Of a stretch of 52,583 bases of DNA, positions 19,121 to 49,635 are shown piece after piece. The DNA is from a virus, in the IMG/VR virus record IMGVR_UViG_3300045110_000292, positions 1 through 52,583 of that record; one strand, given 5' to 3'. The notes below the pieces were generated by a model. It saw only the letters and a program-made list of their open reading frames with translations, did no database searches and was not told the origin of the DNA. The number at the start of each line of letters is the position of its first letter. Positions within the stretch are counted from its first letter, which is position 1. The translations under genes were made by a program, and so were the position numbers.

Positions 19121-20404
19121 ATGGCCGATCTCGCCCCTCCTCCATCTGGTGCTCCTCAAGTCACGATCGTTCCGGCAAAGCCAACGCCGGGGATTAAGAT
19201 GCCAGGGGAGATCCACATTGGCGGCACGCCTTCGACTTCGACTGTGCCTGAGCCACCAAAGCCAGGATCGGCAAAAGAAGCGTTGGGCAAACGATTGGCA
19301 GAGAAGGGGGCGAAACCGCCGACACCGGAGACTCCCCCTGCGCCAGCAACGCCTCAGACACCGAAGCCCGGTGAGGTTCCGACTGGAGCGAAGCCGCCAG
19401 AGACACCTGCGGCGGCCGCGCCTGAAACGACAGAGACTCCTGCTGTCGATCCCAAGACAGGCAAACCGCCCAAGGAATCACCGTGGAAGATCATCGACGG
19501 TTACAAGGAACGACTGGCAAAGGCTGAACGGGCACTGCTCGAAGCTGGCAAGGGCGGCATACCAAAAGAGGTCCAGGAGCGGATTACCAAAGCCGAAGCA
19601 CGCGCCAAAGAACTTGAGGATGAAATCCGATTCGTCAATTACGAGAAGTCGCCGGAGTTCAAGACGAAGTATGGTGATCCCTACGACGCGGCATGGAAGC
19701 GCGCAGTTGCCGAAGTCTCCGAAATCCCAGTCAATGACAACGGCGCATCTCGACCTGCAACTTCTCAGGACATTCTCGACCTGGTAAACCTTCCCCTCGG
19801 TGCGGCAAGGAGTCTCGCCAATGAACGGTTTGGTGAGTTCGCTGATGACGTGATGGCGCATCGAAAAGAGATTCGCGGACTGTTCGATCAGCGTCAGGCT
19901 GCTCTTGAGGAGGCGCGAAAGACTGGCACGCAGAGAGAGCAGGAATTGCAACAGCAGCGTCAGGCGAATCAGGAAAAGATCGTCGGTGAGATCAAAACTG
20001 AATGGCAGAAAGCCAATGATGAAGCCTTGGCCGATGAAAAGAACGGGTCATTTTTCAAACCCATCGAAGGTGACGAACATTGGAATCAGCGACTCGCCAA
20101 AGGGTTCGAACTCGTTGACCGTGCATTCAGCGAGAATCCCGAAGCACCCAACCTCACCCCCGAACAACGTAAATCAATTGTGCGTCGTCATGCGGCTGTG
20201 CGAAACAGGGCTGCCGCATTTGGTCCGATGAAGCACAAGATTTCGACCCTCGAAACCAAGCTGGCGGAACTCACCAAAGAACTCGAACAGTTCAAAGGCA
20301 GCGAGCCAGCAGCGGGCGGCAGGCAGCCATCGAACGGCGCCCAGGAACCAGCGAGTGCGAAGCAAAGCGTGTTCGGCAAGCTGAGGACGTTGGGGGCGAA
20401 GTGA
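19121..20404 (+). CDS. Scaffold-like protein (427 aa)
   Basis: Located directly before the capsid gene. Residues 1-125 are a long low-complexity Pro/Ala/Thr/Glu segment (TPETPPAPATPQTPKPG). The rest is charged coiled coil (KRIT/KAEARAKELEDEI; QREQELQQQRQANQEK) and the tail is basic. This acidic, helical, proline-rich composition fits capsid scaffolding proteins, which guide shell assembly and then leave. No protease domain was seen. Confidence 0.75.
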   Translation: MADLAPPPSGAPQVTIVPAKPTPGIKMPGEIHIGGTPSTSTVPEPPKPGSAKEALGKRLAEKGAKPPTPETPPAPATPQTPKPGEVPTGAKPPETPAAAAPETTETPAVDPKTGKPPKESPWKIIDGYKERLAKAERALLEAGKGGIPKEVQERITKAEARAKELEDEIRFVNYEKSPEFKTKYGDPYDAAWKRAVAEVSEIPVNDNGASRPATSQDILDLVNLPLGAARSLANERFGEFADDVMAHRKEIRGLFDQRQAALEEARKTGTQREQELQQQRQANQEKIVGEIKTEWQKANDEALADEKNGSFFKPIEGDEHWNQRLAKGFELVDRAFSENPEAPNLTPEQRKSIVRRHAAVRNRAAAFGPMKHKISTLETKLAELTKELEQFKGSEPAAGGRQPSNGAQEPASAKQSVFGKLRTLGAK

Positions 20405-20592
20405 AATAGTTGTTGCGGTCCTTCGGAAAGGGGAGTAAACGTCCATTGTCAGGTAAAGCCTGATCGGACAGTTGGGATAGACCACTGACAGTCGGCAAAG
20501 ACCGGCAAGCGGCGGTTCCGCTTCTTAAACCAGTTCCCACGGTTAGTGAAGCGTTATGTCCATTACGAAACAATAGAACCGAATTCTTTTTT
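20405..20592 (+). promoter_or_regulatory. Structured leader of the capsid gene (chain of hairpins)
   Basis: A 188-base non-coding stretch with several perfect stem-loops: CCTT/AAGG (20420-20431); TCAGG/CCTGA around TAAAG (20449-20463) inside GTCC/GGAC (20441-20444 with 20466-20469); GUCGG/CCGGC (20491-20506); and AAGCGG/CCGCTT (20507-20523), directly abutting. The short A-rich segment before the ATG has no Shine-Dalgarno site. It is likely a regulatory or stabilising 5' UTR, or a small RNA. I cannot match it to a known riboswitch. Confidence 0.6.
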
Positions 20593-22077
20593 ATGAGTTG
20601 CCCAACAAATTTTATCACGGGTTGCGATTTTGCACAGTTTTTGGTAAATGAAACCCCTCGATTCGACGAACTCATCATGGAGGACATCCGTGTCACGGAT
20701 TCGTGGCTCGGAAACGTCTCCACCGGCACGAGTCCGATGGGAACACCGTCTGAGATCACCCAGGATCGTTTCCGGCACGTTTGGCCCAACACCACGAAGC
20801 CCTGGCGCCGTGTGGCATCGGCTGGCGTTGGCTGTACCGGAAACCCTTGCGATCCACCGGCTCATCAAATCGGTTGGGGCGCCGATCGGTTGACGTACTA
20901 CACCGAGGAAACGACGTTCGAAACTCCGCTGCTCTGTTACGACCAGGAGATGCACGTCACTCACGCCGAGCAGCACCTTGCCCAGATCATCAACGACATT
21001 CTTCGACCGGCGACCAGCGCCATCGCCAGCATGTTTTTGCGCAAGCGCGCGCTTCTGTGGGCGAAGTATTTGCAGGTGGCAAACTCCGCCCTGTCGGCAT
21101 TCAACTTCCAGTGGAACCTCGATGCCAACGGCAACGAAGTGTTCTTCGATTCGAACATCAATCCAAACAACGTGTTCCATCTGGTTCCCCAGATGCTTCA
21201 ATACAATTTCCAACTGGCGATGCTGGAAGGCTATGCCGGTCGGAACCCGTTCAAAGACACGGCTCCGTTCATCGAACTCGTCACCGACATCGAGTCGCTG
21301 TGGTTCCTGGACAAGTTGGGCGGTCAGCAAGGCGTTGGTGGAGGCGACCTTCCGAATACTCTCGCCAACTGGCGCTTCACCGAATGGGGAGCGGCCAATG
21401 AGTACTGGCGCTATGGCTATTCCGGTCAGATCGGAAACTACATGGCGCGCACCGACATGATGGGCTTGCGCTTCAACTTCGTGGCCGACCTGGGTGCGGC
21501 TGCCAACGGCGGAAATGGAAATCGGTTCCGCTATCAGTTACTCCTGCCGTACGTGAACGGTATCTCATCCGGCGCCGGTGGCGCGGCCGGACTGGGTGAC
21601 ACGCCGAGCTTGGCGTATCAGAATGCGCACTTCGCGATCTCCTTCCAGTGGCATAAGCGGGGTATGGAATTGCTGGTCCCCGACGCGAGGCCGATCAATC
21701 CGGAGATGCCGTTCGGTCATCGTGATTTCGGTGGCAAGTGGCGGTTTTTGATGAACAACCTTGGCGCCGATGCCAACGGTGTTGCCATCAACAACAAGTG
21801 GGAAAACAAAGGGCAGTTTGCGGCGTGGTTCAAATACCTCATTCGCCCGCTACACACGGAGTTCATCCGAGCGTACTTCCACGGCCGGGAACCGATGTGC
21901 ATACCAAACATCGGATTCTGCTCGCCCGATCCTGGCTACCCTGCTCAGGTTTACTCGAGCACGCTGCCGGTCTGTCCGTTGCCTGCTTCCTTCGCTGGAT
22001 TGTTTGGCTCTGGCGTGCCGTTCCCTGGCGGTCCCGACGCACCAGACTTGCCTTTCGTTCCGCCTCCTGATGTATAA
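20593..22077 (+). CDS. Major capsid protein (probable, 494 aa)
   Basis: Assigned by position after the scaffold and by length and composition. It is a soluble, balanced protein with many aromatic residues and beta segments, an N-terminal arm (MSCPTNFITGCDF), a helical stretch near residues 115-165 (AEQHLAQIINDILRP) as in the HK97-fold spine region, and a loop with FDSNINPNN. It does not carry a sequence motif I can recognise, so the family is divergent. It is followed by a hairpin and a small acidic head protein, as in many podoviruses. Confidence 0.7.
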   Translation: MSCPTNFITGCDFAQFLVNETPRFDELIMEDIRVTDSWLGNVSTGTSPMGTPSEITQDRFRHVWPNTTKPWRRVASAGVGCTGNPCDPPAHQIGWGADRLTYYTEETTFETPLLCYDQEMHVTHAEQHLAQIINDILRPATSAIASMFLRKRALLWAKYLQVANSALSAFNFQWNLDANGNEVFFDSNINPNNVFHLVPQMLQYNFQLAMLEGYAGRNPFKDTAPFIELVTDIESLWFLDKLGGQQGVGGGDLPNTLANWRFTEWGAANEYWRYGYSGQIGNYMARTDMMGLRFNFVADLGAAANGGNGNRFRYQLLLPYVNGISSGAGGAAGLGDTPSLAYQNAHFAISFQWHKRGMELLVPDARPINPEMPFGHRDFGGKWRFLMNNLGADANGVAINNKWENKGQFAAWFKYLIRPLHTEFIRAYFHGREPMCIPNIGFCSPDPGYPAQVYSSTLPVCPLPASFAGLFGSGVPFPGGPDAPDLPFVPPPDV

Positions 22078-22516: not shown

Positions 22517-23062
22517 GTGGCAAATGATCCTCAATCGCTTAACTCTCAGGCGCAATGCTACCTGTGTTTCGGAGTCTCTGAAACCGAGGCGCTTGGACTG
22601 GCCTTGCTCGCGAACATTGCCAATGCAACGGTCACGCCGATCACGCCGGTAACACCGCTCGAACCTATGGTCATCGACTTATTTGCAGTCGGCCAGAACA
22701 ACCCAGTGGCCGCGACCACTTACTTCGTTGGGAAATTTTCCGTTCATGTCAACAATACGGTTTACGGATTTGCGATAGTTGACATTCCTCGCGCAGGCAC
22801 GATTAAGCGTGTGTTTTACTTCGTGGATCAAGGTGTGGCGGGCACTGTCGGACAGAACATTACGCACGCCATTACAATTAATAATGCTGTTGATGTTGCG
22901 GTTTCAGCGTTCGATTATAGCGTCATTCCGACCAGTTCTGTCGTCAACTTGTCTCAGGCAGTGAATCAGGGGGATGCAATTGCATTCAAAATAACTACCC
23001 CCGCAGTGTGGACCACCCCGGCAACATCTGTCAGGATGTTCGCACAGGTTTATATCGAATGA
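22517..23062 (+). CDS. Tail/virion protein with N-terminal CYLC module (181 aa)
   Basis: GTG start. The first ~32 residues, ANDPQSLNSQAQCYLCFGVS then a helix EALGLALL, are shared with the three genes at 23064, 23302 and 24069. After this module comes a beta-sandwich-like domain (residues 50-181; HVNNTVYGFAIVDIPRAG) resembling phage fibre or receptor-binding domains. The shared module may be a common docking peptide that attaches different domains to the same particle site. Confidence 0.65.
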   Translation: MANDPQSLNSQAQCYLCFGVSETEALGLALLANIANATVTPITPVTPLEPMVIDLFAVGQNNPVAATTYFVGKFSVHVNNTVYGFAIVDIPRAGTIKRVFYFVDQGVAGTVGQNITHAITINNAVDVAVSAFDYSVIPTSSVVNLSQAVNQGDAIAFKITTPAVWTTPATSVRMFAQVYIE

Positions 23063-23063
23063 T

Positions 23064-23300
23064 ATGGCGACCGACGCTCAATCACTCCTGACTCAAGCCA
23101 GCCCGTACATCGGCTTCGGCACGTCGATTTATCAGGGACTCAAAATAGCCCTGCTCGTGCAAATCGCTTTGGCGCACAACCCGGCTGCCAACGTTACTCC
23201 GCAGGCGCTAATCACAGCAGGTCGATGCAACGCCTGCTTTGCCAATCTGGATGTGGGCAGGATCATGGAACTTCAACTCCTGACCATCATCGCGTCGTGA
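23064..23300 (+). CDS. Small protein made of two CYLC-type modules (78 aa)
   Basis: The first copy (ATDAQSLLTQASPYIGFGTS) has lost both cysteines. The second copy (TPQALITAGRCNACFANLD then a helix MELQLLTII) keeps a C-x2-C pair. There is no other domain. The gene follows the previous stop by 1 base. Confidence 0.6.
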   Translation: MATDAQSLLTQASPYIGFGTSIYQGLKIALLVQIALAHNPAANVTPQALITAGRCNACFANLDVGRIMELQLLTIIAS

Positions 23301-23301
23301 T

Positions 23302-23502
23302 GTGGCAACTGACGCTCAATCTCTTGTCGATCAGTCGAAGTGCTATCTGTGTTTTGGGGTGTCGGAGGCAGAAGCATTAGAACTCGCTTTGCTTAAAACA
23401 TTGGTCGAGAGCGGAACTGGTTCGGGATCTGGGACTGCGATTGAAACTGAATCGTCACAAGATATATTGACGGAATTGGGCGACACTCTGGTAACTGAAT
23501 GA
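23302..23502 (+). CDS. Small CYLC-module protein (66 aa)
   Basis: GTG start 1 base after the previous stop. The module ATDAQSLVDQSKCYLCFGVS plus EALELALLKTL is the closest match to that of 22517. The rest is Ser/Thr/Glu-rich and probably unstructured. Overlaps the next gene by ATGA. Confidence 0.6.
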   Translation: MATDAQSLVDQSKCYLCFGVSEAEALELALLKTLVESGTGSGSGTAIETESSQDILTELGDTLVTE

Positions 23503-24068: not shown

Positions 24069-25007
24069 ATGGCGCTCGACCCTCAATCTCTTCTCACACT
24101 CGCCCAGTGCTACCTCTGCAATGGGGTCAGCATGGATGAGGCGATGGAACTGGCGTTGCTACAACCCCTCGCTGCCAACGGAATATCCACTCCTACAGAT
24201 CCGGTTGTTTTAGATTATGTTGCCCGCCTGACGGCCCTGAGCGGAACTGCTCCAAGCTCGGACTTCGTATCTGCAATGGACGTTTACGTAAAAGGTATGA
24301 GAGCAGACGGTATTTGGGGCAATATGATAGTCGTTCATATACTCCCCAATTTCTTTGGTGCAGCAAGTTTGACGACACCTCTTTTGGTTGGTCCGAGCGC
24401 GTTTGTTAATGGACCTCCTGCCACAAATCCGTTTCTCAACGCAGACCTGACTAACGCTGGACTTTGCCCGAACGGTGGAAACAAATTTCTGAACGTTGGA
24501 TGCACACCTGCAGTCATGTGGTCATCCGCATCGAATATCGGGTTTTCGTCTTACGTGGCAGTTTATGTCGGCAACGGGAACGTGACATCAATGGGCTGTA
24601 CTGGTGGTGGAAATCTGTTGCAGTTTTTTGAAGGCACCGCAGCCGCCAATGTGGAATTAGACTGCCTTAACAATGCCAACGATGTTGCGTTAGCCAATCC
24701 GGCGCCAGCACTCGGCGGTTTTTACACAGGAAACAGAATAGCGAACAACGACTCGCGGTTGTTCTTTGGAAATTCGACGAACGCTTTCGGCCAGATCGGA
24801 GCCACCCAAGTCAATGTGATGACGGGAACTTTAGTCGGACTCCTGCCAATTTGGGCGATGGGAACAAATAACGGTGGCCCATTGTTCAACACTAATCGAA
24901 CGATCTCGTACCTCGCTTGGCATACAGGCATGACTGGCACCCAGGCCGCGAAACATTTCTCGCGCGTCCAGACGTTGAGGACATCTATGGGTGGCGGTTT
25001 CGTTTGA
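24069..25007 (+). CDS. Tail-tip/receptor-binding candidate with CYLC module (312 aa)
   Basis: The N-terminal module ALDPQSLLTLAQCYLCNGVS and EAMELALLQPL match the 22517 family. The large C-terminal domain is beta-rich and ends with ISYLAWHTGMTGTQAAKHFSRVQTL, a pattern I associate with concanavalin-like domains in phage tail proteins. Likely exposed on the particle and a candidate carbohydrate binder. Confidence 0.65.
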   Translation: MALDPQSLLTLAQCYLCNGVSMDEAMELALLQPLAANGISTPTDPVVLDYVARLTALSGTAPSSDFVSAMDVYVKGMRADGIWGNMIVVHILPNFFGAASLTTPLLVGPSAFVNGPPATNPFLNADLTNAGLCPNGGNKFLNVGCTPAVMWSSASNIGFSSYVAVYVGNGNVTSMGCTGGGNLLQFFEGTAAANVELDCLNNANDVALANPAPALGGFYTGNRIANNDSRLFFGNSTNAFGQIGATQVNVMTGTLVGLLPIWAMGTNNGGPLFNTNRTISYLAWHTGMTGTQAAKHFSRVQTLRTSMGGGFV

Positions 25008-49223: not shown

Positions 49224-49635
49224 CGGGCAACGTTGCCAAGTAGCCCAATCCCCAAGCGGAACTTTCGTGTCCCCTCGACTTTGGCAATGACCGCGTCAGG
49301 GCAGGAACCAGAATGACCGCATCACCTGAGACCAGGCAAGACGTCAGACCTGAGCTTTTAGGAAAGAAGGTCTGCAGGCGAACCAAACCGAAAAGGAATC
49401 TCTTTGGCGTCAGACGGTCCCCACACCCCCAACCCGGACCGGGCCAGGGAGATTGGGGGTCGAGAGGTGAGAGTGGACTTTTGATGGATGCCAACTTTTC
49501 CAAAACTTTCGACTTGCAGACCTGAAAATCGCTCTCCCCTCATACTCCCCTCTGTATATGTATCTGTATGTGCCTACGATTTGACACCGTTTAATATAGT
49601 TGACATGCGTTGACAGTTGTGATGATGTATAAGGA
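49224..49635. other. 412-base stretch without a firm gene; possible small frame and promoter-like boxes
   Basis: A plus-strand frame at 49313-49525 (70 aa, starting MTASPETRQDVRPELL, basic and proline-rich) is possible but has no recognised family and a weak ribosome site. The last part holds three TTGACA hexamers (49581, 49600, 49610) and a TATAAG at 49628, but no pair has normal spacing. This could be a regulatory or replication-origin region. Confidence 0.4.

Follow-up and report, generated by a model that had tools for sequence, protein, structure and literature searches.

What occupies the 188 nt in front of the major capsid gene of this phage? The gap lies within a window of 52,583 nucleotides, the whole stretch of viral DNA analysed (IMG/VR record IMGVR_UViG_3300045110_000292), and follows a 427-aa open reading frame (ORF) (Table 1). 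The original prediction, made from the letters alone, saw in it at least four perfect stems, two of them adjoining. All four are present in the window sequence (CCTT-CGGA-AAGG, CAGG-TAAAG-CCTG, GTCGG-CAAAGA-CCGGC and AAGCGG-CGGTT-CCGCTT), and two of them, at 20491–20506 and 20507–20523, do abut. As evidence for a structured leader, however, this leader alone is barely beyond chance: folded as a single sequence, the gap reaches −53.7 kcal/mol with z = −1.24, 21 of 200 shuffles being equal or better, while the segment from −160 to +12 of the capsid AUG gives z = −2.0. It is among related leaders that the idea is borne out, both by the fold (mean z of −1.74 over 64 clusters, as compared with −0.48 in upstream control windows) and by strong covariation.

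Table 1. Features of the capsid locus and its leader in the window (AS, start-masking helix)
Feature	Position	Strand	Basis or remark
427-aa ORF, weak likeness to scaffold proteins	19121–20404		PF06810, E = 2e-4, below cut-off
188-nt gap	20405–20592		between the 427-aa ORF and the capsid ORF
−35-like element TTGCGG, degenerate	20413–20418	+	position −180; lines up with relatives, most of which have TTGACA
First predicted stem, CCTT-CGGA-AAGG	20420–20431	+	between the −35-like and −10-like elements
−10-like element TAAACG	20436–20441	+	GGAGTAAAAG in close relatives L005 and L030
H1, 5′-terminal hairpin GTCAGGT-aaa-GCCTGAT	20448–20464	+	pair probability ≥0.9
H2, hairpin CAG(T)TGG-GATAGA-CCACTG	20469–20487	+	alternative to S1; by eye
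S1, GACCaCUG (20480–20487) with CGGcGGUU (20510–20517)	20480–20517	+	encloses H3
H3, hairpin GTCGG-CAAAGA-CCGGC	20491–20506	+	pair probability ≥0.93
Predicted stem AAGCGG-CGGTT-CCGCTT	20507–20523	+	alternative fold, disfavoured
Second helix, 5′ arm CGGTTC	20513–20518	+	overlaps the 3′ strand of S1 (20510–20517)
AS helix, CGCTTC (20519–20524) with GAAGCG (20548–20553) and AACC (20528–20531) with GGTT (20541–20544)	20519–20553	+	pair probability ≥0.92
Six-codon ORF ATG TCC ATT ACG AAA CAA TAG (MSITKQ)	20556–20576	+	sequence, R3 alignment
Second helix, 3′ arm GAACCG	20576–20581	+	ends 12 nt before the capsid AUG
Major capsid protein gene, 494 aa, predicted N4 gp56-like HK97 fold	20593–22077	+	AlphaFold2, Foldseek, BFVD

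The capsid gene and its relatives

With an input of 14 sequences, AlphaFold2 gave a capsid model with a pLDDT of 36; 63 relatives were used instead, and the resulting model (mean pLDDT 73.9, pTM 0.71) finds its best solved Foldseek match in the capsid of phage N4 (9e99, E = 2.8e-9) and N4-gp56 family capsids in BFVD. Because of these matches, the label ‘capsid gene’ given in the original prediction is correct on the evidence of the predicted fold. As in the family, the leader adjoins this N4-type gene directly on its upstream side. PHROG and Pfam returned no match for the 494-aa protein, and the phage GenBank collection neither a DNA nor a protein match. A capsid family of at least 63 members without a PHROG or Pfam match, despite a predicted N4-type fold, represents a gap in capsid annotation.

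Scanning IMG/VR with this protein as query yielded 89 distinct leaders, falling into 64 clusters, in front of N4-type major capsid proteins of 46–71% identity. The sole relative in a cellular genome collection (L113, JAQGOT010000011.1, 7363 bp) is a short contig in a genome bin of Pedosphaera, which we take to belong to the Verrucomicrobiota; this contig hints at Verrucomicrobiota as hosts. Downstream of the capsid gene in the window, four genes on the same strand (22517–23062, 23064–23300, 23302–23502 and 24069–25007) have in common an N-terminal segment of about 35 residues, MATDPQSLLTQAQCYLCFGVSEAEALELALL, after which the remainders are unrelated; this may perhaps be a shared virion-attachment segment.

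A promoter upstream of the leader

Exact TTGACA occurs between −290 and −170 in 42 of the 64 clusters, as compared with 4/64 and 3/64 in flanking windows; for −170 to −50 the count is 4/64. The relatives’ promoters have a spacer of 17–18 nt and, in most, a T/A-rich −10 element. The promoter proposed for the window, TTGCGG-17-TAAACG (20413–20441), has a 17-nt spacer and two degenerate hexamers. Its −10-like element was placed by comparison with the relatives’ promoters, and we infer that transcription starts at about 20448. The first of the predicted stems lies inside this proposed promoter and is therefore probably not transcribed. In two relatives (L024 and L025) a strong terminator-like sequence, AACCCCCTTAGAAATAAGGGGGTTTTTT, was seen by eye directly before the capsid promoter, some 230–270 nt upstream of the capsid AUG; such a terminator would leave the capsid transcript there dependent on the capsid promoter. 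Elsewhere in the window, three TTGACA hexamers fall within 35 bases of the plus strand (49581–49615, starting at 49581, 49600 and 49610), a dense promoter-like or repeated site.

A free small RNA, which the original prediction had also entertained, was rejected: the plus strand shows no terminator-like site from the promoter to the start codon, and the start region is itself part of the fold. That no known riboswitch had been recognised was borne out, Rfam giving 0 matches at gathering cut-offs over the whole window and 15 relatives’ loci, and 0 up to E = 10 for window positions 20300–20700. A tRNA/tmRNA search found none.

A covarying helix at the start codon

Many leaders contain a mid-leader segment (for example CTTCAAAAC) whose sequence complements the bases immediately preceding the AUG (GTTTTGAAG). 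In the L106–L113 group, CATAAAATCG is complementary to the AUG itself (CGATTTTATG), and in L127, L023 and L231 the segments CATAAAGTCG, GGTTCTAAAAAC and CTTCATTAAAA are complementary to the start-codon sequences CGACTTTATG, GTTTTTAGAACC and TTTTAATGAAAG, respectively. Each mid-leader was scored against its own start region and against those of other clusters, a swap that tells pairing from a shared motif. Over the 64 clusters, pairing with the own start scored 17.4, as compared with 13.9 ± 0.33 after swapping and a maximum of 15.3 in 10,000 permutations (z = 10.5). The same test gave z = 1.5 for a control target 20 nt further upstream (−43 to −21) and z = 1.3 at the starts of downstream genes. 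When the target was slid along the leader, z was 9.4 at the start codon, 4.8 at −10, 2.3 at −20 and about 0 from −30 upward. All four Watson–Crick pair types are found at helix positions 4 and 6–10. By these comparisons of related leaders, the predicted AS helix is established for the family.

A clear contiguous AS helix, joining mid-leader to the start codon or the ribosome-binding region, was found in about half of the 64 clusters and no clear one in the rest; in many relatives it forms part of the minimum-energy fold. The original prediction had pointed to compensatory changes in homologous leaders as the evidence to look for, and these proved abundant. What they support is a different architecture from the chain of local hairpins first described: its conserved core consists of a long-range helix reaching to the start codon area and a stem enclosing a hairpin. 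A structured capsid leader without an Rfam match is supported; the stems originally singled out are mostly not its conserved parts, one lying in the proposed promoter and another being a disfavoured alternative fold. Repeated AAAG loops were likewise rejected as a motif, the loops of relatives being different and forming no family signature. In three distant relatives (L099 at 2893–2986, L100 upstream of 2995 and L190 upstream of 2492) an in-frame hydrophobic extension, exemplified by MVTLLSVFGVLLGAAWLKSVFRLYKNGFDFR in L099, was noticed by eye before the assumed capsid start. The true start may lie further upstream in these genomes, which could account for the missing helix there.

S1 and a candidate pseudoknot

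In relatives, a hairpin just upstream of a GAAG motif is present in 23 clusters, as compared with 4.4 in shuffles and 13/63 in control windows (11 against about 2 with a stricter score), and it covaries. S1, which encloses this hairpin and abuts the CTTC of the AS arm, has at least five Watson–Crick pairs in 8 of 21 leaders where 2.0 were expected by swapping (p = 0.0002, for a GAAG-defined subset and a test narrowed after looking); the broader GAAG-defined test gave p = 0.04. Swap tests of S1 over all CTTC-anchored leaders were not significant, and an unconstrained pseudoknot search per leader gave no excess over shuffles. The covariation is suggestive of an H-type pseudoknot, formed in a subset of leaders by S1 and GAAG:CTTC, which would compete with the AS helix for CTTC. 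In the window the corresponding S2 stem has shrunk to approximately AAG:CTT.

Covariance models and the place of the window

RNAalifold, applied to 14 start-proximal domains aligned with MAFFT, predicted no pairs, the 3′ arm having been slipped in that alignment. Core alignments A6 and A7 were misaligned, so that a covariance model was grown from one close cluster instead. The first model, R1, was built from one cluster of five and searched against 516 kb that excluded these five; ranks one to three and rank five went to capsid leaders in register (L069, L092, L001 and L076), no single E-value being significant. With the first three added (R2), the search returned L097 at E = 0.01 and also recovered L076, L095, L101, L005 and L091. 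R3, which further includes L097, L076 and L095 (11 relatives), found L101 at E = 0.019, followed by L066, L258, L075, L005 and the window. Its alignment carries two-sided changes in 17 of 25 pairs and has a covariation score of 0.342, as compared with 0.102 when shuffled and at most 0.044 when slid, the score being favoured by an alignment that was fitted to the structure. Across 18 whole phage records, R3 matches below E = 0.1 occur once per phage, at the capsid leader; weaker ones are unreliable.

In the window, the best R3 match (20491–20558, 11.0 bits) has E = 0.0046 for a 401-nt region and E = 6.2 in the pooled 549-kb search; over the window’s whole record, R3 gave no match at E ≤ 1. Within this match, CGCTTC-TTA-AACC (20519–20531) and GGTT-AGT-GAAGCG (20541–20553) are aligned to the relatives’ AS helix. 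The alignment ends on an AUG at 20556–20558, in register with UU-AUG and 2 nt after the helix, as in L078 (GAAGCCTT-ATG). This AUG opens a six-codon ORF and stands where the family structure has the capsid AUG; the window’s own capsid AUG lies 37 nt downstream in a different frame. The small ORF could possibly be a leader peptide, a re-initiation site or a relic of recombination.

The region upstream of this AUG offers more than one fold. One of the four stems originally reported, CAGG-TAAAG-CCTG, falls inside H1, and by eye a hairpin is found at this position in many relatives (e.g. L078, L019 and L023); the GATAGA loop of H2 is, again by eye, common to L057 and L065. S1 belongs to the minimum-energy fold with pair probabilities of 0.6–0.9, and a fold forced to contain the AAGCGG/CCGCTT hairpin comes out about 15 kcal/mol above the optimum. 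A second helix would join the leader to the capsid start region. It is the best contiguous pairing between mid-leader and start region in the window (p = 0.17 alone; 0.17–0.64 for the window’s own start-region pairing), and the window’s CAATAGAACCG has a similar counterpart in L069, CAATAGAAGCG, the difference between them being compensated in the L069 partner, CGCTTCTA. Because its 5′ arm shares bases with the 3′ strand of S1, the second arm and S1 are mutually exclusive. The two states, S1 on the one hand and the second arm stacked on the AS helix on the other, have computed energies of −42.6 and −41.1 kcal/mol, i.e. 1.5 kcal/mol apart. The window keeps the ingredients of a two-state leader, and the comparisons weakly suggest that it is a divergent and modified member of the family.

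Discussion

Taken together, the data are best read as a cis-acting leader that would control translation of the major capsid mRNA, probably as a two-state switch, and that appears to be conserved in N4-type phages; judged from sequence comparison, we put the probability of this reading at roughly 0.6. The leader would be the 5′ region of the capsid mRNA, about 145 nt long, transcribed from its own promoter. By analogy with T4 genes e, soc, 49 and I-TevI, the AS helix would lower access of the ribosome. The upstream S1, joined in a subset by the GAAG:CTTC pseudoknot, shares or abuts the 5′ arm of the AS helix and would compete with it, which would make the leader a two-state switch, the start being open in the S1/pseudoknot state and masked in the AS state; the two states have less support than the masking by AS. 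Masking the start of a very abundant protein makes sense only if something relieves it, and candidate triggers would be free capsid or scaffold protein, ribosome traffic, co-transcriptional folding or timing, and a small ligand. In the window, the AS helix would be intact and would cap the AUG of the small ORF, with the stacked second arm of 6 bp ending at −12 of the capsid AUG; capsid protein would then probably be made by re-initiation after the small ORF, or by direct initiation when the second arm opens.

For the window itself, the leader may instead be decaying or recombinant, an out-of-frame junction having left the ancestral start (ATGTCCATT) behind the AS helix, so that the capsid gene now starts 37 nt downstream without proper control. 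The match of GAAGCG-TT-ATG to the sequence around the start in relatives (e.g. GAAGCCTT-ATG in L078), the R3 alignment ending exactly at the AUG of the small ORF and the degenerate promoter all speak for such a history, which we nevertheless hold to be a minority possibility, since the second arm, CGGTTC/GAACCG, reaches the capsid start region and has a counterpart in L069.

Alternatively, the element could be constitutive, the hairpins shielding the capsid mRNA against decay, with a start-proximal helix that fixes the initiation rate or silences read-through transcripts. Hairpins located from the inferred transcript start onwards, an AS helix lying in the minimum-energy fold of many relatives and the partial nature of the evidence for the pseudoknot are all consistent with this explanation, and fixed start-masking helices do exist in phages, at T4 genes e, soc and 49 (PMC3014915). 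It is made rather unlikely by the two mutually exclusive, near-equal folds of the window and by the covariation, in a subset, of S1 strands beside the AS arm, for which a fixed helix has no need; moreover, both arms lie downstream of the conserved promoter, contrary to the situation at T4 gene e.

A more specific version of control, also rather improbable at present, would be autoregulation, in which unassembled capsid or scaffold protein binds S1, H3 or the pseudoknot and stabilises the masked state, thereby matching synthesis to assembly. Each phage has one copy, invariably at the capsid gene, which would fit, as would the position of the leader just downstream of a gene weakly resembling scaffold genes (PF06810, E = 2e-4, below cut-off), and T4 gp32, whose leader pseudoknot is bound by its own product, provides a precedent (PMC3014915). 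On the other hand, the family has no sequence-conserved binding loop. Finally, inverted repeats acting in DNA as an operator, or chance hairpins in a promoter-proximal spacer, would agree with the presence of a promoter and with the window’s own fold z of −1.2 to −2.0, yet the arms change together and are tied to the start codon where an operator would keep its sequence, and permutation excludes chance for the family; the operator was rejected, and a reading without any RNA role is refuted for the family and very improbable overall.

If the preferred reading of a translational-control leader is right, the most abundant virion protein of a whole phage group apparently has its translation controlled by a hitherto undescribed RNA element that has a promoter of its own. 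This makes it possible to ask by experiment how synthesis of the capsid protein is adjusted to assembly or to timing in these phages, and the R3 model and the natural compensatory variants are directly usable for reporter tests. It is tempting to speculate, although we consider it doubtful, that these leaders represent a new class of phage RNA switch sensing assembly, through free capsid or scaffold protein, or some other signal; such a leader would toggle between a pseudoknotted open state and a start masked by the long-range helix, and compensatory changes would have preserved it throughout a broad range of N4-type phages.

Comparison with known systems

At T4 genes e, soc, 49 and I-TevI the start region is sequestered in an mRNA helix, and well-translated late transcripts of gene e start inside the structure, without its 5′ arm (PMC3014915). 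The capsid leaders resemble these in placing the Shine–Dalgarno sequence and/or the AUG of a phage mRNA in a helix that should lower initiation. A paired start of this type is indicated for the family by covariation (z = 10.5); in the window it would involve only the second arm (p = 0.17) and the AUG of the small ORF. Contrary to gene e, the family has its conserved promoter upstream of both arms; its element is maintained through compensatory changes in a broad range of phages and is located at the major capsid gene.

Gene 32 of T4, T2 and RB69 carries a leader pseudoknot, and T4 gp32 binds its own leader (PMC3014915). Here too a phage gene has a structured leader, with a possible H-type pseudoknot in a subset of the family. 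The gene is a different one, however, the main conserved part of the family is the covarying start-masking helix, and the pseudoknot is a candidate in that subset, with a reduced S2 stem in the window. Should the leader switch, it would share with translational riboswitches the principle of a strand that can pair with either of two partners but not with both, the start region being hidden in one of the two pairings; it differs from them in being without a known aptamer, ligand or Rfam match and in that its gene encodes a virion protein, not a metabolic enzyme or a transporter. A literature search, with subscription journals largely outside it, returned no report of a covarying, family-wide start-masking helix at a major capsid gene. 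A few T4 genes are already known to have start-masking helices; what appears to be new is a family-wide, covarying one at the capsid gene.
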